From a virus, in the IMG/VR virus record IMGVR_UViG_3300028589_000016, positions 1 to 43,010 of that record: a stretch of DNA of 43,010 nt. One strand, 5' to 3'. Every line of letters starts with the position of its first letter. Position 1 is the stretch's first letter. The notes beneath the pieces are model-generated. The model was not told the origin of the DNA. It saw only the letters and a list, made by a program, of their open reading frames with translations, and searched no databases. Below, one piece after another: positions 1,687 through 43,010 of the stretch. The translations under genes and the position numbers were made by a program.

Positions 1687-4131
1687 GTGCTTTTCAATGA
1701 CCTACTGAGCCGGTTCGCTGAGGTGACCGAACAGAGTGACGGCGGGTTCCTCGCTGTGTGCCCCTCGCACGGGGATTCCCGCCCGTCGCTGCGCATTTGG
1801 ATTGGCGACGATCGCAAGGGCCGACTCACCTGCCGCGCAGGCTGCGCCACCAAGGATGTGGTTGCTGCGGCTGGTCTGACTTGGGGAGACCTGTTCAACA
1901 TCGAAGGTGACGCACCGACCGTATCCAGCGCCAAACCTGAGTTGGTCGGTCCGAAGCACGTGGCGGCGCTTGACGGTTACGCGCGGGATGCTGCCGACCG
2001 GCTGACCGACTTCAGCGACGAATGGTCGACGATCGCGCGCAACTACCTGAACGATCGGTTCGGCATGTCCGTCGAGACTGCCTACAACCTTGGGGTTGGG
2101 GTGGACGACACGACGGTAAACCCTCTCTTCGGTGCGCTGAGCACGGCTTACAAGCGCTATGCGCGGCTGACGGTGCCTCTGCTCGACTTTGCCGGTACTC
2201 CGCGCGGCTTGCAGGGGCGTGACCTTACCGGCCAGTGTCCGGGGCGCTGGGTGTCGCTGAGCAACCCGGAAGGCTTCAGATGGGCCCCCTACGGCGTATT
2301 CAAGGGCGATGGGGGTTACGGGGTCACCCTGGTGACTGAAGGGCCCGGAGATGGCCTTACGGGCGTCGCAGTGGGCTACGACGTGGTCATGGTCCGGGGC
2401 GCTGCCCTGGTCGGTTCACCCGAGACGCTCAGCGAGATTGCGGACGGTGTGTCTGGTACGCAGGTCATCGCCTGCGGGGACAACGACAGCGCCGGACGGG
2501 AGTTCAACCGCCGTTTGGCGGAGGGTCTGAAGCCGTTCGGTATCACTGTCTACGCGCTGCCCATTCCGACCAACTTGGGACCCAAGTCTGACCTTACGGA
2601 CTGGCGTGGCGCTGAAGGACAGACGTTCGCGCTGAGTCTGCACAAGGCTGTCAAGGCTGCGCGCCCTGTGGTGAAGGCTGAGGACACTGCCCGCGCTGAG
2701 GTCAGCGAGGAACTGAGCGAGGCTACCGGCGCTGACATTGTGTCGCGCGACCAGGGCAACGAAGCGGCGCGCATCCTCGCCGGTCTGCTCGAACGGTACG
2801 GGGACACCGACGCGATGAACGCTCACGCGCTGGTGGCTTGGACCGATGGGCGGATCAAGTATGCGCCCGGACTTGGGTTTTACGTGTGGAACGGCCGCAC
2901 GTGGGAGCGCTCAGAGGTCAAGGTACGTCAGGAGATTCACCGCATGGGCGCTGCCCTGGTGCTCGCTGGCAAGGTCAAGGAAGCGCGCGGGTTCACCATG
3001 ACCACGCGCATCAATGACCTGATGACCGAGTTGCGCAGCGTGCCGAGTGTGTACGTGGCCCCTGGTGATTTCGACAACCGCCCCGAGTTGCTCAGCTTCC
3101 GTAACGGCACTGTCGAGTTGCGTACGGGTCGCCTGCGTCCGCACTCGCAAGAGGACATGCTGACCTACTGTCTCGCGCTGGACTATGACCCTGAGGCGCA
3201 GTGCGCTCGCTGGGAAAAGTTCCTTGAAGAGATCATGCCGGGGATGCCGGACATGCCTGCGTACCTTCAGCGGTTGATCGGGTACGGGATTACGGGTCTC
3301 ACCGATGAGCAGTGTTTCGCGGTGCTCTGGGGGAAGGGCGCTAACGGTAAGAGTGTGCTGACTGACACGCTGTCGGCTGTGTTCGGTTCGGTCACCAAGA
3401 CAACCCCCTTTGCCACGTTTGAGGAAAAGCAATCGGGCGGTATCCCGAACGATATTGCGGCGCTGCGTGGTTCGCGTCTGGTCATGGCGTCTGAGGGCGA
3501 GTCGGGTAAGCCGATGAGCGAGGCTGTACTGAAGCGCGTCACCGGTAAGGACATGGTCAGCGCACGGTTCCTGCGGCAAGAATTCTTTGAGTTCAAGCCG
3601 TCGTTCCTGCTGATGCTGGCGACGAACCACAAACCGAAGTTCAAGGGCCAGGATGATGGTCTATGGCGACGCGTCAAGATGATTCCGTTCAAGCGGTTTT
3701 TCGCTCCGCATGAGCGGGACCATGACCTAGACAAGCGGCTCATGGCTGAGGCGCAGGGCATCGCGGCTTGGGCCGTTCGGGGCGCTGTCGAGTGGTTCGC
3801 GAACGGTCTGCGGGACCCCCAAATCATCACAGCAGCGTCGCGCGAGTACCGCGAAACGTCCGATGCGCTGGTTGGTTTCTTCCCTGGTGTCTACGACCGG
3901 GATGAAGCGTCGCAGGTCCCTGGCGCTGAGGCGTACAACGCCTACCGGGAGTGGTGCGAGGCTGAGGGGCTACCGTCCAAGGAAATTTGGACGCGTCGCG
4001 CATTCTATGACGCGATGGAAGAGCGCCAAGTCACCCGTAAGAAGACGAACAAGGGAATCACGCTGGTGGGTATCCGACTCGCTAGCAGCGAGGCAAAGCC
4101 TACGGGTCCGGGCATCTTTGCCCGCGACTGA
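1687..4131 (+). CDS. DNA primase-helicase (P4 alpha/D5 type)
   Basis: 814 residues, the replicative primase fused to a superfamily 3 helicase. The N-terminus has a CHC2-type zinc motif (C25, H28, C49, C53). A Toprim-type centre follows with TEGPGDG near 217-223 and ACGDND at 262-267. The C-terminal part has a Walker A GKGANGKS at 549-556, a probable Walker B region near MASEGE, and the sensor-like LATNHKP near 644-650, as in D5/P4-family helicases. The GTG start has GAAAGGGG upstream. Proteins of this class make primers and unwind DNA, and in P4 the protein also recognises the origin. It follows the directional element and precedes the polymerase, with which it forms the replication module. 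Confidence 0.95.
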   Translation: MLFNDLLSRFAEVTEQSDGGFLAVCPSHGDSRPSLRIWIGDDRKGRLTCRAGCATKDVVAAAGLTWGDLFNIEGDAPTVSSAKPELVGPKHVAALDGYARDAADRLTDFSDEWSTIARNYLNDRFGMSVETAYNLGVGVDDTTVNPLFGALSTAYKRYARLTVPLLDFAGTPRGLQGRDLTGQCPGRWVSLSNPEGFRWAPYGVFKGDGGYGVTLVTEGPGDGLTGVAVGYDVVMVRGAALVGSPETLSEIADGVSGTQVIACGDNDSAGREFNRRLAEGLKPFGITVYALPIPTNLGPKSDLTDWRGAEGQTFALSLHKAVKAARPVVKAEDTARAEVSEELSEATGADIVSRDQGNEAARILAGLLERYGDTDAMNAHALVAWTDGRIKYAPGLGFYVWNGRTWERSEVKVRQEIHRMGAALVLAGKVKEARGFTMTTRINDLMTELRSVPSVYVAPGDFDNRPELLSFRNGTVELRTGRLRPHSQEDMLTYCLALDYDPEAQCARWEKFLEEIMPGMPDMPAYLQRLIGYGITGLTDEQCFAVLWGKGANGKSVLTDTLSAVFGSVTKTTPFATFEEKQSGGIPNDIAALRGSRLVMASEGESGKPMSEAVLKRVTGKDMVSARFLRQEFFEFKPSFLLMLATNHKPKFKGQDDGLWRRVKMIPFKRFFAPHERDHDLDKRLMAEAQGIAAWAVRGAVEWFANGLRDPQIITAASREYRETSDALVGFFPGVYDRDEASQVPGAEAYNAYREWCEAEGLPSKEIWTRRAFYDAMEERQVTRKKTNKGITLVGIRLASSEAKPTGPGIFARD

Positions 4132-6076: not shown

Positions 6077-6108
6077 GGGTCGCCTCAGTTACGGCCCCGT
6101 AGCGTGAG

Positions 6109-6150
6109 AAACGGCCATGTTCCTTCTACGGAGCGTGGCCGTTTCGCACT
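6109..6150 (+). terminator. Hairpin downstream of the polymerase
   Basis: GAAACGGCCATG pairs with CGTGGCCGTTTC around a loop of about 18 nt. There is no long T run, but its position 30 nt after the polymerase stop suits a terminator. Confidence 0.5.
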
Positions 6151-6322
6151 TGTGACCTAGGCAACTTCGTCCAAGATCGAACTTTCGAAACACTGGCTTC
6201 ACCCTGCATCTAGTTCCGTCCAACCTCTGATTCTCAGGTATGAGGTTGGGTCACGCCTTCGAAACCTCTGCAACTACATCGGTTAGTAGGTTGTCTAAAG
6301 GTGTGTCACATACGAAAGGCCA

Positions 6323-6351
6323 TTGACCACCTACGAAAAACGGCATTAGAT
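6323..6351 (+). promoter_or_regulatory. Sigma-70 type promoter for the sigma-factor gene
   Basis: TTGACC, 17-nt spacer, TTAGAT. One operator half site lies in the spacer and another just upstream, so the palindrome-binding protein could also act here on half sites. The distance to the start codon at 6531 leaves a long leader containing the directional element. Confidence 0.55.
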
Positions 6352-6481
6352 CAGTCCCACGCCCTACCGAGTCGCCCGGCCGGAGACTCGGAAGAGCAGA
6401 CAGCGACCCACCTGAGAACGGGTCACGTCTGTGTCCTAGCGCTGCCCTCTGACCAGCGCATTCACCGGCCGGACTCCTCAG

Positions 6482-6497
6482 GTAACCGACTCGCTAG
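6482..6497 (+). promoter_or_regulatory. Directional 16-nt element ahead of the sigma factor
   Basis: GTAACCGACTCGCTAG, 33 nt before the ATG of the sigma-like gene. If it is a promoter for that sigma factor, it would form a positive feedback loop. Confidence 0.75.
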
Positions 6498-6530
6498 TCC
6501 CCAGCGAACACACCTGAACGGAGTCATCCC

Positions 6531-7667
6531 ATGCTCACGCTTGCCCAGATTCACGCTGCCCAGACCAACGACCTTGCCGGTATCAGCGCCGTACTGACCG
6601 AAATGGATGAGCGAGTCAAGCGCCTCGCTGCCAGCGCTGCCCGTCGACTGTCGGACCACGGTCACTACCGCGAAGACTTTGAGCAGGATGCCCGAGAGGC
6701 TCTGTTCATGGCGCTGCCTCGCGTGACCGGTGACAGCGTGGACCGTGCGATCGGTTTCCTCTACGCGTCCATTGAGGACGCTCTGAAGGACCGAGTCAGG
6801 GCGATCCGTTACCAGGGCGCGGACAAGGATGCAGTCAAGGTCTTTACGTCCATGCTCGCCCGTACCGACGGGGACGCGCACAAGGCTGAGGTGCTGGCGC
6901 AGACGGAACCGCCCAAGGGTGTGCGACTCGGGGCCGACCGTGCGCAGGCTGCCCGTATCGCGTGGCAGGGGAGTGTCTACCTTGACCGGCAGACCGGCGA
7001 GGGTGAAGCGTCGCTGGCTGACACGCTGGCCGCTCCGCAGGATGACGCGCCGGACGTGGTTCGCCCCAAGGTTGGCCGGGGTGCCGTTCTGGAAGCGCTG
7101 AGCGTCATCGAGCGGTACGTGACCGTTCCCACCGACGCCGACGCCCGTGAGGGGCTGCTGAAGGCTCTGGACACCATGGCTACCGGTTACGCCACCCCGG
7201 ACGCCGTTGAGGCGCTCAGCGAGGCTGTCAGGGTCCCGGCTGACCCCACCACGCGACGACTGGTGCTCGACGCCGTAGCGATCCTGCACAGCAGCGCTTC
7301 AACGGCCACCGATGGCGCTGTCGCCGATGACCTGCGCGACGTGTCCGATGACCTGCGCGATGAGCGTGCGGTGAAGCACCTGAACGTGTCGGCTGCACTC
7401 GACCGCATGGGGGACAAGCAGCGCGACATCCTGCGCTACAGCTTTGGCATCGGTGGCGCGGAAGACTTTGGTTGGGGCGACGCTGGCGACCTTGAAGGAC
7501 TGGCCGAGTTTCTCGGCATGACCACTCACCACGTCAAGACGTACCGCTCTAAGGCTCGCGTCTCGTTCGTTAAGTACTACGTGGCCATCGTGGCTCGCAC
7601 TGAGGCTGAGGCGCTCGCGCTGGCCGATGCGGCTGCCGCCAACCGCACGCAGGCGGGCCGTAAGTGA
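6531..7667 (+). CDS. Phage sigma-70-like RNA polymerase sigma factor
   Basis: 378 residues. Residues about 20-85 look like region 2: helices around VKRLAASAARRLSDH, then YREDFEQDAREALFMALPR and a DRVRAIR segment. A DRQTGEGEASLADTL segment resembles the conserved stretch between regions 3 and 4. The C-terminal part has a region 4 helix-turn-helix: ALDRMGDKQRDILRYSFGIG, then LAEFLGMTTHHVKTYRSKA. Such proteins replace or compete with the host sigma to redirect RNA polymerase. An Ala/Asp-rich stretch of roughly 100 residues lies before region 4. The ATG has ACGGAG upstream. The gene follows the directional element and overlaps the next gene by GTGA. I am confident of the family, less of its target promoters. 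Confidence 0.8.
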   Translation: MLTLAQIHAAQTNDLAGISAVLTEMDERVKRLAASAARRLSDHGHYREDFEQDAREALFMALPRVTGDSVDRAIGFLYASIEDALKDRVRAIRYQGADKDAVKVFTSMLARTDGDAHKAEVLAQTEPPKGVRLGADRAQAARIAWQGSVYLDRQTGEGEASLADTLAAPQDDAPDVVRPKVGRGAVLEALSVIERYVTVPTDADAREGLLKALDTMATGYATPDAVEALSEAVRVPADPTTRRLVLDAVAILHSSASTATDGAVADDLRDVSDDLRDERAVKHLNVSAALDRMGDKQRDILRYSFGIGGAEDFGWGDAGDLEGLAEFLGMTTHHVKTYRSKARVSFVKYYVAIVARTEAEALALADAAAANRTQAGRK

Positions 7668-7969: not shown

Positions 7970-8204
7970 CGCGTACGCGCGCACTCGCAGGCACCGTACG
8001 GCCCCCTACAAGCGCGCTGAGGTCTTTGCCCGCTGGGGTGGCCGGTGCTGCTACTGCGACGCGCCAGCGGAGCACCTAGACCACGTCACGCCCCTGTCAC
8101 GGGGTGGTCGGGATGTGCTGGCGAACGTCGTCCCTGCCTGCGCTGACTGCAACCTCTCGAAAGCTGCGTTGACCCTCGCTGAGTGGCTGGCAGTGACCGA
8201 GTAA
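7962..8204 (+). CDS. HNH endonuclease core, C-terminal half
   Basis: 80 residues in the +1 frame relative to the gene before. It contains WGGRCCYCDA, LDHVTPLSRGG and VPACADCNLSKAALTLAEWL, the full HNH core with the zinc cysteines and the DH and N residues. The alignment with the 1213-1644 nuclease is continuous from MADAYARTRR onward, so the frame break falls in the linker between zinc motif and core. The ATG lies inside the last codons of the upstream frame, which allows re-initiation. The TAA stop is part of the directional element at 8201. Confidence 0.75.
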   Translation: MADAYARTRRHRTAPYKRAEVFARWGGRCCYCDAPAEHLDHVTPLSRGGRDVLANVVPACADCNLSKAALTLAEWLAVTE

Positions 8205-8216
8205 CCGACTCGCTAG
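8201..8216 (+). promoter_or_regulatory. Directional 16-nt element
   Basis: GTAACCGACTCGCTAG. Its TAA is the stop codon of the HNH core gene, and the next start codon is at 8256. Confidence 0.75.
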
Positions 8217-15270: not shown

Positions 15271-15365
15271 AAGTGATGAAGTGACGATTAGACCCCACTC
15301 CCGGTAATACATATAGGTTTCTATAGCGATTACAGAACGGCCCATCGTTCCGTCACTTCGTCACT
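15271..15365. repeat. Nested dyad element, copy A
   Basis: Outer arms AGTGATGAAGTGACG and CGTCACTTCGTCACT pair with one G-T. Each arm is a tandem repeat of GTGACGA-like units. An inner pair GTAAT/ATTAC encloses TATAGGTTTCTATA, itself a hairpin. A second copy with stronger arms is at 38351-38444, and both share GTTTCTATAGCGATTAC and TAGACCCCACT. Both lie about 75 nt after a terminator and just ahead of a directional element. Confidence 0.8.
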
Positions 15366-15396
15366 ACCCCTCACGGACGACTCGCGCACACAGCGG

Positions 15397-15412
15397 GTAA
15401 CCGACTCGCTAG
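15397..15412 (+). promoter_or_regulatory. Directional 16-nt element ahead of the tRNA cluster
   Basis: GTAACCGACTCGCTAG. Unlike the other copies, what follows is not a protein gene but tRNAs, which argues that the element acts in transcription rather than in translation. Confidence 0.75.
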
Positions 15413-31400: not shown

Positions 31401-32203
31401 AGGTTCGTGGTCGGTGGGGTGGCACGCCTAGCGCGCAGCCTATCTACCTGTGGGGTGCCCGCATGTTCGCTGTGTCGGGGCAGTCGGTCAGCGATGAATT
31501 CACGCGCACTGTCACTGACGGTTGGGGTACTTCCGACTCAGGGCACGACTACCTGATTACGGGTGGCGCAGCCGCTACGCGGTTCGCTGTCAACGGCTCG
31601 CAGGGCCAGCACATCATGGGCACGCGGAGTCTCTTCTACACCACGTCGCTACCGACTGTGCAGCTAACTGACGTTGACTTTTCAGCGACGGTAACGGTGC
31701 CGGTTATGCCGACTGGTGACGGGGTCTACACCTACGCGCTTGTGCGGACGAATGCGGATGCGACGAACTACTACTTCGCCCGTATCTGGTGCAAGACGAC
31801 TGGTGTTGCTGAGCTGTCGCTACGGAAGCGCACGCCTACGGAATCGCTACTGGCGACGTACGGGACGACTCTGACCCACACTGCTGGGCAGGGCTACAGG
31901 GTTCGCATCAGCGCCGTAGGGTCGACGATCCGTGCCAAGTTCTGGCGCACGCAGGACAGCGAGCCGCGCGATTGGCAACTAGTCGTCACGGACGCTGAAC
32001 TTGCGGGCCCTGGCGGTGTCGGTGTCCGTTCCTACATCAGCAGCACGAACACGAACACGCTCCCTGTCACTACAGCGTTTGATGCCCTTCAAGTGAACGA
32101 CTCGCAGCACTTCGCGGTGGCTCGCTCGCTGAACGGTGTGGTCAAGGCGCAGCCGGTAGGGGCAAGCGTCTCGGTCGCCAATCCCGCTGTCGTGTCTCTG
32201 TAA
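28403..32203 (+). CDS. Large minor tail protein (tail tip/hub with carbohydrate-binding-like domains)
   Basis: 1266 residues from a GTG with CAGGGGTCAG upstream. The N-terminal segment ELFIGGTWLDVSPDVYLREVKN and SLSLTLNNRAGKYSPRN is typical of actinophage tail tip proteins. Lectin-like or laminin-G-like domains seem present (residues about 95-290 and 1025-1225, with LDITGDIDVRAEISPDW and DVDFSATVTVPVMP), and a CBM-like beta domain near residues 880-1030 (PGRRYRVGMWVYAPNG). It probably combines hub structure and host wall binding. The internal part (LEAAADADGGML) resembles a siphophage tail protein core. Confidence 0.85.
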   Translation: MGFPLDIRTELFIGGTWLDVSPDVYLREVKNIVRGLRDQGSTADPASLSLTLNNRAGKYSPRNAMSPLYGLIGRNTPLRLSVPSEESYLQLDGRDGCEASTPDSASLDITGDIDVRAEISPDWYGSTNQLIIGKWDSAALQSSWFVQVYNGSIYFRYTISGNESAGGRWFARGLPALPERAAIRVTMDVDNGRGGNTVTFYWAESLDAPNGWTMIQQPVTVTAGTSPIFSGTAPLRIGVTDPKVSGRRPMTGRGYRFEVRNGIDGPVVASPDFRVAAPGSASVTDAQGNVWTLSGSAQVRDRADRFVGEVASWPLRWSTDDADIWTPITANGILRRLGQGTKALDSTLRRRIPSGNPIAYWPMEELTDAVQAYSPIPGVQPASVSSVDWASADSLPSSAPLPRLTGESSLSAPVPDAEPGQWHVEMVYNADKKIPMEDVEFLKILSGNGTIRQWVIFKRNTLVTVEGYNAAGTRVVWQGAVVGADIFNDWTRFRFFAYDADSGGTFTWRIEWQDPGGDAGGLSGTVTGTCGSVSMVSADWPALTEGWAVGHLAVLREAGSALYTGSDNAYLGETALTRMRRLAVEEGLTLTRTPGRLSTEAVGFQRRDSLLSLLEAAADADGGMLTEDMDRIGLRYRDRSSLYAQEPAITLSYTSAGLGPDLEPVDDDSATVNDVTVVRDGGSAGRAVLEEGPLSVQPAPDGIGKYDASYTVSLARDDQAAPHAHWRLHKGTWDAARFPTVSLLLHKPGAEWLIPLVRKLREGDKVRITDLPEWVSHDDVDLIVLGWTERLDMYRWELDLNCVPAGPWDTALTDAAIADTDGSAVAQAATASATSLVVRTTEGPLWADDPLSLPYDVRVAGEHMRVMSVGELVDTGDPYMTTGAAWTGASSTVGWQNGVTLPNGKVGGVVQVTPNGTSEFGDGVSPMSAAGSVTPGRRYRVGMWVYAPNGLSDFRPAFYNYNAAGTYLGTAVAPAQAIPAGVWTWTQYDFTAAANTVRGKVRGRWGGTPSAQPIYLWGARMFAVSGQSVSDEFTRTVTDGWGTSDSGHDYLITGGAAATRFAVNGSQGQHIMGTRSLFYTTSLPTVQLTDVDFSATVTVPVMPTGDGVYTYALVRTNADATNYYFARIWCKTTGVAELSLRKRTPTESLLATYGTTLTHTAGQGYRVRISAVGSTIRAKFWRTQDSEPRDWQLVVTDAELAGPGGVGVRSYISSTNTNTLPVTTAFDALQVNDSQHFAVARSLNGVVKAQPVGASVSVANPAVVSL

Positions 32204-33909: not shown

Positions 33910-33972
33910 GGTCCGGGGGAGTAACCGACTCGCTAGTGAGTGAGTGTGGTCTACCCCCGGACCGTTTTCTTT
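33910..33972 (+). terminator. Terminator with a directional element in its loop
   Basis: GGTCCGGGGG (33910-33919) pairs with CCCCCGGACC (33954-33963), followed by GTTTTCTTT. The 34-nt loop contains the directional element at 33921-33936. Confidence 0.82.
33921..33936 (+). promoter_or_regulatory. Directional 16-nt element ahead of lysis genes
   Basis: GTAACCGACTCGCTAG inside the loop of the late terminator, 47 nt before the endolysin ATG. Confidence 0.75.
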
Positions 33973-35257: not shown

Positions 35258-35273
35258 GTAACCGACTCGCTAA
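35258..35273 (+). promoter_or_regulatory. Directional element ahead of the dNMP kinase (one base change)
   Basis: GTAACCGACTCGCTAA, directly after the stop of the holin-like gene. It is followed with no gap by the hairpin at 35274-35303. Confidence 0.7.
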
Positions 35274-38275: not shown

Positions 38276-38350
38276 GCCCGCAGAGAGCCGTACAGACGTT
38301 GTCACGTAGCGTCGGTGGTCTGCCGACACAGCGTAGTCAGCGCCAGAGCA

Positions 38351-38444
38351 AGTGACGAAGTGACGATTTAGACCCCACTTCAGTAATCCCTAAGAGTTTC
38401 TATAGCGATTACTGGACTGCCCATCAAATCGTCACTTCGTCACT
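38351..38444. repeat. Nested dyad element, copy B
   Basis: Perfect 19-bp outer arms (38351-38369 and 38426-38444), each a tandem GTGACGAA-GTGACGAT-type repeat, with inner AGTAATC/GATTACT arms. It shares TAGACCCCACT, GTTTCTATAGCGATTAC and GCCCATC with copy A at 15271-15365. It ends two bases before GGTAACC of the directional element. Confidence 0.85.
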
Positions 38445-38446
38445 AG

Positions 38447-38462
38447 GTAACCGACCCGCTAG
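38447..38462 (+). promoter_or_regulatory. Directional element ahead of the exonuclease (one base change)
   Basis: GTAACCGACCCGCTAG. It directly follows the nested dyad and lies 33 nt before the exonuclease start. Confidence 0.72.
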
Positions 38463-39328: not shown

Positions 39329-39466
39329 GTGCGCACAGTGGCATCCCTTGCGGCTCTCACGCTGGTCGCTGCTGTCGGCATCTGGGCGTGGTTCTTCGGC
39401 CCGTGTGACCTGTACCGGTTCACAGCGTCCGCAGATGTGCCGGGGCGCTGCCTGATGGGCGAGTAA
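39329..39466 (+). CDS. Tiny membrane protein, 45 aa
   Basis: GTG at 39329, three bases after the exonuclease stop. Residues about 3-23 (TVASLAALTLVAAVGIWAWFF) form one membrane segment, followed by GPCDLYRFT and a second cysteine. GGAGGG upstream is a good ribosome binding site. The TAA stop belongs to the directional element at 39463. Function unknown. Confidence 0.6.
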   Translation: MRTVASLAALTLVAAVGIWAWFFGPCDLYRFTASADVPGRCLMGE

Positions 39467-39478
39467 CCGACTCGCTAG
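39463..39478 (+). promoter_or_regulatory. Directional 16-nt element ahead of the directionality factor
   Basis: GTAACCGACTCGCTAG, overlapping the previous stop codon and followed 12 nt later by a 13-bp hairpin. Confidence 0.75.
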
Positions 39479-40495: not shown

Positions 40496-40833
40496 GCGCT
40501 GACAGCGCCTACGCCATGTTGTTTGTTCTGGCCATGTCTGCCGCTGGTGTTGCCGCAGGCGTGGCCCTTTTTCTCCGGAGAGAGGTTCACCCCATGCCCC
40601 TTTACGAAGTTCGCCGCACTGACGCTGTCCAGCCGGGGGAGTTCGATAACGCCCTTGTGATCGCTGGTGGTCGGGCGCGTGCCCGTGCTGCTGTTGCCCA
40701 TCTGGTGCCCAAGGGTGCCAGCGTTGAGGCGCTGCGAGTCGAGACTGTGAATCAGCCGACTGCCCTACTGGCCGCTTATTTCGATGAGCGTCCGGCCGGG
40801 TCGGATTTCCCTGAGGCTGATGAAGCCTGGTAA
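40492..40833 (+). CDS. Small conserved protein with optional membrane anchor
   Basis: 113 residues from the GTG at 40492 that overlaps the previous stop. Residues about 7-28 (YAMLFVLAMSAAGVAAGVAL) form a membrane helix, followed by the soluble domain MPLYEVRRTD... DEAW. A second in-frame start, ATG 40594, has a much stronger GGAGAGAGG site and gives the 79-residue domain alone. Both forms are plausible: an anchored and a free one. The C-terminal part is the same as the partial gene at 2-235. Function unknown. Confidence 0.6.
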   Translation: MSADSAYAMLFVLAMSAAGVAAGVALFLRREVHPMPLYEVRRTDAVQPGEFDNALVIAGGRARARAAVAHLVPKGASVEALRVETVNQPTALLAAYFDERPAGSDFPEADEAW

Positions 40834-40963
40834 CGCCAACTGCCCCGTTCTCAGCGCTAGTCGCTGGGTTCGGGGCCAGTGGCAGTAGAGAGCAACCCCA
40901 GCGCTGAGGAGAGACAGCGTGGCGTTCATTTTCACTGCACAGGGCGATCCTAGGAGAGAGAAC

Positions 40964-41278
40964 ATGGCTGACTTCAAGGCTGGAGACAAGGTCACCTATC
41001 GGGGCATGGTCATGCCCGCAGAGGTTCTGTCGGGCCCGCACCGTACGACCGGTCAGCGGCTGCGCTATCTCATCCGCAAGGCGGACGGGAATGTGTCGCT
41101 GGTGCCGGTGACTGATCTTCAGCGAGTCGTCCCCCGGCTGGACAAGGTGTCCGGGACGCTCAGCATGCACATTTACGGCCGTCCCTGGTCGGCGCTGGAC
41201 ACTCCCCGGAGGATGCAGATTGCGACCGCTGCGGTTGCGGCGATCCGTATCGCGGACGAGACGCGCGGAGAGGCGTAA
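40964..41278 (+). CDS. Hypothetical protein, 104 aa (repeat copy of 366-680)
   Basis: Identical copy in the right terminal redundancy, including both candidate starts (GTG 40919 and ATG 40964). Not a separate gene in the unit genome. Confidence 0.7.
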   Translation: MADFKAGDKVTYRGMVMPAEVLSGPHRTTGQRLRYLIRKADGNVSLVPVTDLQRVVPRLDKVSGTLSMHIYGRPWSALDTPRRMQIATAAVAAIRIADETRGEA

Positions 41279-41280
41279 GC

Positions 41281-41565
41281 ATGGGGAAGCGTGGGGTAGT
41301 TACCGACTATGCCGGTGAGGAACTGTACGCCGGTGATCTGGTGACGTACGCAGTGCGGGCGGGCAACCGAGTGCGCATGACTGACGCTGTCGTGCAGGAT
41401 GTCACCACTGAGAACGTGGGGGGCCGTCTGCGTCCGATGCTGCTGGTACAGCCGACCGGCCATGAGTCCGGGTTCACGCGTCGCCGGACGCTCGATCCGG
41501 TGAAGATCAGCGCGGAACATGTCCGGCTGGTCACTCCAGACTTTGTCAACCAGGGCGAGGAGTAG
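41281..41565 (+). CDS. Hypothetical protein, 94 aa (repeat copy of 683-967)
   Basis: Identical copy in the right terminal redundancy; see the left copy. The terminator copy is at 41573-41602. Confidence 0.75.
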   Translation: MGKRGVVTDYAGEELYAGDLVTYAVRAGNRVRMTDAVVQDVTTENVGGRLRPMLLVQPTGHESGFTRRRTLDPVKISAEHVRLVTPDFVNQGEE

Positions 41566-41620
41566 GGGAGTTGGGGTCAGTGGGTTATCGCCCGCTGGCC
41601 CCTCTCTGCGTTGAGGCAGG

Positions 41621-41634
41621 TACGAATTTTCGTA
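41621..41634. promoter_or_regulatory. Operator palindrome (repeat copy of 1023-1036)
   Basis: TACGAATTTTCGTA in the right terminal redundancy, identical to the left copy. Confidence 0.8.
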
Positions 41635-41646
41635 GGAGGTACGCCC

Positions 41647-41823
41647 GTGGAACGGGCTATCAGAGTGGGGAATGCCCCCGCAATGGGTGACGTGCGCACG
41701 CTGGGGGAGGGTGACACGCTATGGATTGAGTCCCCGATACGCGAGTCGCGCGAGTGGTGCCGTTACGTGGATGCTGTCCGCCATGCCGTGACGCGTGGCG
41801 CTGATGTTAGGTGGCTACGGTGA
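41647..41823 (+). CDS. Hypothetical protein, 58 aa (repeat copy of 1049-1225)
   Basis: Identical copy in the right terminal redundancy, with the same operator-overlapping ribosome binding site. Confidence 0.65.
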   Translation: MERAIRVGNAPAMGDVRTLGEGDTLWIESPIRESREWCRYVDAVRHAVTRGADVRWLR

Positions 41824-42242
41824 AGGTATGCCGACTATGCGGGCGGGGACGGCCCGCCTCTGAATTCCTCGCCGGTAAGGCGAAGAAACCAACAAGCGCA
41901 TGCGCGTCATGTCGCCGGAAGCGCCAGCAGCAACACATACGCAACTTCTATCGGTCGCTTCCCCCGGACAAGCGCCACGAACTGACGCACAAGCGTAGGG
42001 CGCAGGCGTATGGCGTTGAACATGTGCCGTACAGCCGTACGGAGATTCTTGCCCGCTGGGGGCACCGGTGCGCGTACTGCTCTGCGCTGGCCACTCATCT
42101 GGATCACGTACACCCGCTGTCCAAGGGTGGCGCTGATGTGGAACACAACATCGTGCCAGCGTGCGCGACCTGCAATCTTTCCAAGGGTGCCAAGACACTT
42201 GCGGAGTGGTCAGAGTCGTTCGGTTCGGAGCCTCCGTTCTAG
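41811..42242 (+). CDS. HNH endonuclease (repeat copy of 1213-1644)
   Basis: Identical copy in the right terminal redundancy, with the same zinc and HNH motifs. Confidence 0.9.
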   Translation: MATVKVCRLCGRGRPASEFLAGKAKKPTSACASCRRKRQQQHIRNFYRSLPPDKRHELTHKRRAQAYGVEHVPYSRTEILARWGHRCAYCSALATHLDHVHPLSKGGADVEHNIVPACATCNLSKGAKTLAEWSESFGSEPPF

Positions 42243-42258
42243 GTAACCGACTCGCTAG
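42243..42258 (+). promoter_or_regulatory. Directional 16-nt element (repeat copy of 1645-1660)
   Basis: GTAACCGACTCGCTAG ahead of the partial primase copy. Confidence 0.75.
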
Positions 42259-42284
42259 CCCCTCAGCGAACGAAAGGGGAAACG

Positions 42285-43010
42285 GTGCTTTTCAATGACC
42301 TACTGAGCCGGTTCGCTGAGGTGACCGAACAGAGTGACGGCGGGTTCCTCGCTGTGTGCCCCTCGCACGGGGATTCCCGCCCGTCGCTGCGCATTTGGAT
42401 TGGCGACGATCGCAAGGGCCGACTCACCTGCCGCGCAGGCTGCGCCACCAAGGATGTGGTTGCTGCGGCTGGTCTGACTTGGGGAGACCTGTTCAACATC
42501 GAAGGTGACGCACCGACCGTATCCAGCGCCAAACCTGAGTTGGTCGGTCCGAAGCACGTGGCGGCGCTTGACGGTTACGCGCGGGATGCTGCCGACCGGC
42601 TGACCGACTTCAGCGACGAATGGTCGACGATCGCGCGCAACTACCTCAACGATCGGTTCGGCATGTCCGTCGAGACTGCCTACAACCTTGGGGTTGGGGT
42701 GGACGACACGACGGTAAACCCTCTCTTCGGTGCGCTGAGCACGGCCTACAAGCGCTATGCGCGGCTGACGGTGCCTCTGCTCGACTTTGCCGGTACTCCG
42801 CGCGGCTTGCAGGGGCGTGACCTTACCGGCCAGTGTCCGGGGCGCTGGGTGTCGCTGAGCAACCCGGAAGGCTTCAGATGGGCCCCTTACGGCGTGTTCA
42901 AGGGTGATGGGGGTTACGGGGTCACCCTGGTGACTGAAGGGCCCGGTGATGGCCTTACGGGCGTCGCAGTGGGCTACGACGTGGTCATGGTCCGGGGCGC
43001 TGCCCTGGTC
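42285..43010 (+). CDS. DNA primase-helicase, 3'-truncated by the window edge (repeat copy)
   Basis: The first 242 codons of the gene at 1687-4131, covering the zinc motif and the start of the Toprim part. Six of the seven differences between the terminal copies are here (42647, 42746, 42887, 42896, 42905, 42947); all are third-position changes that keep the amino acid (Leu, Ala, Pro, Val, Gly, Gly). Confidence 0.93.
   Translation, partial: MLFNDLLSRFAEVTEQSDGGFLAVCPSHGDSRPSLRIWIGDDRKGRLTCRAGCATKDVVAAAGLTWGDLFNIEGDAPTVSSAKPELVGPKHVAALDGYARDAADRLTDFSDEWSTIARNYLNDRFGMSVETAYNLGVGVDDTTVNPLFGALSTAYKRYARLTVPLLDFAGTPRGLQGRDLTGQCPGRWVSLSNPEGFRWAPYGVFKGDGGYGVTLVTEGPGDGLTGVAVGYDVVMVRGAALV

Follow-up and report, generated by a model that had tools for sequence, protein, structure and literature searches.

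A gp12-type sigma factor, its probable promoter box and a candidate leader gate in a phiC31-like temperate phage

Phages of the phiC31 type underlie much Streptomyces genetics, and the early promoters of phiC31 were reportedly described as phage-specific in the 1990s. In the literature that we searched, the factor behind the phage-specific promoters of phiC31-type phages was not found named. T4 gp55 and the SPO1 sigma factors are phage sigma factors for timed expression, and the gp12 protein considered here resembles them in this respect; T4 late promoters, however, carry a single -10-like box, whereas the promoters attributed to gp12 have their strong box upstream, in a -35-like position. Phage 7-11 (SaPh711_gp47) and phiEco32 (gp36) encode sigma-70-family factors with their own promoter sets (PMC8948821). 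The likeness to the system proposed here is that a phage sigma-70-family factor drives a set of phage promoters, which in 7-11 are bipartite too (PMC8948821), but the promoter sequences are unrelated, and the genes served are middle and late genes there and mostly replication genes plus the sigma gene itself here. No mRNA gate was found described for the 7-11 and phiEco32 sigma systems (PMC8948821). Such a gate operates on T4 gene e (lysozyme), where read-through mRNA forms a helix that blocks the Shine-Dalgarno sequence, and mRNA begun at promoters within the helix lacks it (PMC3014915). The same gate logic is proposed below for the gp12 leader, with the difference that in T4 a lysis gene is gated, whereas the gene gated here would be that of the sigma factor firing the promoter.

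The DNA analysed, hereafter the window, is the whole of positions 1 to 43,010 (43,010 nt) of the IMG/VR virus record IMGVR_UViG_3300028589_000016. Both in the genes it carries and in their order it matches the temperate Streptomyces phages of the phiC31 type, and the virus is one of soil bacteria. The gene at 6531-7667 (+ strand) follows the DNA polymerase gene and a gap of ~450 nt, as it does in phiC31, BT1, TG1, and the further named phages compared. phiC31 gp12 (NP_047957.1) and its homologues in Lomovskayavirus and Vashvirus belong to the same family and occupy the same gene position after DNA polymerase. The window protein, here also called gp12, shares 47% identity with phiC31 gp12, already named 'RNA polymerase sigma factor' in RefSeq; the sigma label itself is consequently not new. 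The gap before gp12 (6077-6530) keeps a length of ~390-530 nt in all relatives (e.g. L003, L010, L011, L014, L015, L019, and L020). A terminator-like hairpin, recognised by eye, follows the DNA polymerase gene at 6109-6144 (+ strand). Also within the gap is a conserved block that resembles GGTTACGCCTTCGAA and can still be made out in very distant phages; a promoter, an RNA, or a replication origin are candidate roles for it.

The open reading frame spans exactly 6531-7667 and encodes 378 amino acids, all of which are matched by PHROG 15865, 'RNA polymerase sigma factor' (aa 1-378, E 5.9e-115). An earlier sequence-only reading had noticed region 2-like and region 4-like segments and proposed HMM searches and structure prediction as checks. 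Both segments were borne out, the domain-level HMM evidence residing in the family rather than in the single sequence. On the window protein alone, Pfam Sigma70_r2 (aa 27-91, E 0.0013) and Sigma70_r4 (aa 289-342, E 0.0048) both fell under the gathering score, and the NCBIfam sigma70-ECF superfamily match (E 3.5e-7) was below the family cutoff. Sigma70_r2 was matched in 43 of 46 gp12 homologues (best E 2e-9), and the family profile matched region 2 of solved sigma factors (E 6e-7) and region 4 of RpoD/SigA (E 5.6e-5 to 7e-4). The AlphaFold2 model (mean pLDDT 87.6) agreed: its best PDB fold matches were all sigma factors, with weak full-length E-values (0.017) that probably reflect flexibly joined domains, and its region 2 matched that of sigmaE (2map) with an rmsd of 2.6 over 97 columns. 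On the combined evidence of sequence and predicted fold, the gene encodes a sigma-70-family factor.

Region 2 comprises aa 27-91 (6609-6803). Region 4 comprises aa 271-354 (7341-7592) and is delimited by RpoD/SigA region 4 alignments, together with the co-divergence and residue association described below; its helix-turn-helix is weak on single sequences and emerges from the profile match and from predicted helices at 295-354, with a predicted recognition helix at ~aa 332-346 that includes residues 338 and 343. The 'long insert' that had been noted between these regions is present as a segment, yet it really consists of two parts. The first, a conserved region-3-like stretch with a finger-like motif (SLD...SLADTL; aa 99-177, 6825-7061), was defined by alignment and by Sigma70_r3 matches in three family members, its likeness to the sigma70 finger being judged by eye. 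The second is a clade-specific helical insert (aa 178-265, 7062-7325), modelled mostly with high pLDDT and missing from the aligned Rowa, Shaeky, and Sebastisaurus clades. Because these two parts separate regions 2 and 4, gp12 does not have the ECF (group 4) architecture, in which only regions 2 and 4 are present with a short linker. The gp12 homologues of Sycamore (L017:28152-28946) and Shady (L018:28335-29138) are annotated as RNA polymerase alpha subunit, a label that looks like misannotation of a sigma factor. In L244 and L245 (same record as L121) a gp12 copy seems to be broken in two, and its second part contains a TAG.

A directional element, GTAACCGACTCGCTAG, precedes gp12 at 6482-6497 (+ strand), where it would serve as a -35-like box. 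A motif scan of the window returned ten sites at 0-1 mismatch, all on the + strand, one of them the terminal repeat of another. Besides the gp12 copy, these lie upstream of the genes for primase (1645-1660) and DNA polymerase (4070-4085), a small gene positioned like gp13 of phiC31 (8201-8216), the tRNA cluster (15397-15412), the genes for endolysin (33921-33936), dNMP kinase (35258-35273), and exonuclease (38447-38462), and a phiC31 gp3-like gene (recombination directionality factor; 39463-39478). At up to three mismatches there are 13 matches in the window, versus 0.28 expected by chance. Within each genome the copies hardly vary over a block of ~15-16 nt and are found on the coding strand only, in intergenic positions or before tRNAs; forward copies are many and reverse copies almost none. 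Versions differ by lineage (phiC31's own element, GGTTGCCGACTCCCTT, is unlike that of the window), most having a YCGACTC-like core in common, and the 3' half is pyrimidine-rich in most lineages. In nearly all of 74 loci, the copy before gp12 is the version of the directional repeat that belongs to that genome; it stands ~43-57 nt from the gp12 start. When 25 further contigs were checked, all eight repeated-copy contigs of at least 16.8 kb encoded gp12, and those without gp12 were short or single-copy.

A sigma-dependent promoter normally has two boxes. In 12 genomes tested with five-column windows (p<=0.005), a second, YGARG-like box was found at columns 23-29, counted from the first G of the element, giving two conserved boxes with the same spacing in 11 of the 12; L028 was the one genome in which it was not detected. 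In the window the second, -10-like box is CGAAC (6505-6509, + strand), and the two boxes together predict a transcription start at ~6515-6518. The second box is weak, above all in the window itself (p 0.002-0.003), and the 16 nt of the element are long for a -35 box, which counts against reading it as a promoter box.

The link between gp12 and the element was assessed in 46 phages, with the element consensus built from copies separated from gp12 by more than 1.3 kb. Element distance followed gp12 distance (Mantel 0.688; partial 0.585, 0/1000 permutations). Distances of all proteins correlate with the element to some degree, and the partial values for other early proteins were 0.17 for exonuclease, 0.07 for gp3, 0.02 for gp4, 0.20 for primase, and -0.03 for polymerase. 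Within gp12, the partial value was 0.606 for region 4 versus 0.20-0.32 for region 2. Since column-by-column association is strongly confounded by ancestry, only patterns of gp12 alone and a tree test were used. In all 46 phages, the identity of residues 338 and 343 goes with that of element base 3: residue 338 is Ala in 20/20 phages with a GGC-type element and never Ala in the 26 of GGT type, and residue 343 is Leu or His in all 20 with C at base 3 and Arg, Lys, or Phe in all 26 with T. In a tree built without region 4, supported branches force four independent changes (L007, L038, L051, and L049), and residue and base switch together each time; the choice of residue 338 was post hoc, and a sign test on four switches cannot reach p 0.05.

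The sequence-only reading had offered the sigma factor, by inference, as partner of the directional element. That pairing is supported because the two co-occur, because they co-diverge in region 4 when distal copies are used and other proteins are controlled for, and because the second box makes the element bipartite. The directional element is thus very probably the promoter box of the gp12 sigma factor. No link of gp12 to the element sites was found in the literature, in a search that did not reach the early phiC31 promoter studies.

The gp12 copy of the element differs from the others in its RNA context. It lies within a leader hairpin (6472-6525, + strand) whose outer stem pairs 6472-6483 with 6512-6517 and 6520-6525, and whose inner stem pairs 6491-6495 with 6503-6507; the GGAG at 6520-6523 sits in the 3' arm of the outer stem. 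Twenty gp12 leaders were tested, and each folds more stably than its own shuffles (z -2.2 to -5.1). A common plan recurs in most of 65 distinct leaders: an outer stem (Shine-Dalgarno in the 3' arm), an asymmetric loop with the left part of the element, and an inner stem. In nearly all loci the element lies within the 5' half of the hairpin, upstream of a start site that is itself predicted. The hairpin is kept in fold rather than in sequence: the arms vary between lineages yet match each other. RNAalifold on MAFFT alignments did not recover it, finding almost no pairs because the arms were misaligned, and alignment-free arm swaps were used in its place. Cognate arms out-paired swapped arms in both stems (outer -16.7 vs -12.4, inner -8.9 vs -6.1 kcal/mol; 0/10000), an effect that was not seen in 41 control genes. 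As in T4 gene e, the Shine-Dalgarno is mostly paired in the long, read-through RNA (53 of 64 leaders); in the short RNA this holds for 20 of 64. For the window, the long message folds at -21.4 kcal/mol and the element-started message at -8.0 kcal/mol over 55 nt, the latter still pairing the Shine-Dalgarno weakly (low unpaired probability); control genes also have partly paired sites.

Further upstream is a host-type promoter (TTGACC-18-TAGATC, 6323-6352, + strand) with one operator half site in its spacer (6329-6338) and a second at 6308-6317, an arrangement repeated in L005, L014 (Rowa), L043, L046, L051, and L056. The sequence-only reading was right that both this promoter and the directional element precede the gene, but the simple early start that it drew from the host-type promoter is not supported, since transcripts from there would carry the conserved SD-hiding hairpin and should by themselves give little gp12. 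The self-reinforcement that it also expected is retained in altered form, as a process that this arrangement appears to gate.

We therefore propose the following model, which as a whole we regard as fairly probable. gp12 would guide the core RNA polymerase of the host to some nine phage promoters, at which the directional element would act as a -35-type box recognised chiefly by region 4, and the weak YGARG box ~8-9 nt downstream as a -10-type box. The promoter of gp12 itself would lie within the 5' half of the conserved hairpin that hides its Shine-Dalgarno. Messages running in from upstream, including those from the operator-controlled promoter at 6323, would keep the whole hairpin and hence be poorly translated; element-started messages would begin just before the GGAG, lack the blocking arm (6472-6483), and be translated. 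In a temperate phage, such a gate would prevent stray read-through in the prophage from switching the factor on, and the switch, once begun, would be steep. The first gp12 molecules could come from leaky translation or from a hairpin-opening factor. More tentatively, at somewhat short of even odds, we suggest that this temperate actinophage family evolves sigma factors and promoter boxes as lineage-matched pairs, with sigma mRNA efficiently translated only when self-started, as a positive-feedback gate for the lytic switch. Neither the gp12 leader gate nor the link of gp12 to the element through region 4 was found in the literature searched, and we take the leader hairpin to be new here. The result provides a testable factor, a two-box promoter, and two residues (338 and 343) predicted to set specificity, along with dozens of natural sigma-promoter pairs that might lack cross-talk, and the leader gate could account for the silence of the phage sigma factor in the prophage state.

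The sigma-promoter part of this model is common to the alternative that has to be taken most seriously, namely that the hairpin acts as a regulated switch, which a protein, a small RNA, or temperature would open, rather than as a gate bypassed by promoter choice. The sigma mRNAs of rpoH and rpoS are controlled in this mode and provide a precedent, and the conserved gap of ~390-530 nt, with other conserved blocks upstream of gp12, would suit such control. Against this, the promoter lies inside the hairpin, so that bypass needs no extra factor, and no Rfam family matches the gp12 leader; we consider a regulated switch unlikely, though a serious contender.

Considerably less probable is that the element is no promoter at all, and acts as an RNA signal (a translation operator or processing site) bound as RNA by gp12 or another protein. 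Its place inside the conserved hairpin of most gp12 leaders invites this reading, as does the ability of its pyrimidine-rich 3' half to pair with Shine-Dalgarno sequences at some sites. A general role as an RNA hairpin with the Shine-Dalgarno was dropped after flank swaps within genomes: with the gp12 site left out, 8 of 10 genomes showed no pairing specific to the site. Hence no consistent element-linked hairpin occurs outside the gp12 site, and the proposed gating would be special to gp12. Element copies also precede tRNA genes, the second box keeps its spacing regardless of structure, and co-divergence is strongest in region 4, a domain that reads DNA.

The stoperators of phage L5 are directional and intergenic. 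Stoperators have also been described for R4 (PMC10276819). That the element is likewise a site of some other regulator, or a promoter for another phage factor, with the gp12 match due to shared ancestry, would accord with its directional, intergenic placement and with the correlation, to some degree, of all protein distances with the element, but is the least probable reading of all, given that the partial correlation is large for gp12 only (repressor, polymerase, and others being much weaker) and that palindromic repeats form a separate repressor-type site.

Fifteen such palindromic operator-like sites (TACGAAnnTTCGTA) occur in the window, at 1023, 4158, 8612, 10637, 11144, 11542, 16360, 17318, 21778, 23390, 26428, 32219, 33893, 35926, and 36487; most of them occupy gaps different from those of the element. 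Every relative carries a palindrome of its own, and the two site systems thus diverge in parallel.

The ends of the window repeat each other (1-2412 and 40599-43010; 2405 of 2412 positions identical), and seven mismatches in 2412 bases are odd for a simple circular assembly overlap. In phiC31 (L003), positions 31424-31510 give a tRNA match (Rfam, 53.6 bits) that is absent from the RefSeq table. A pair of 96-nt repeats (15271-15366 and 38350-38445, 76% alike) lies with each copy just upstream of an element copy, and the second (38351-38444) has inverted arms of 42 nt.
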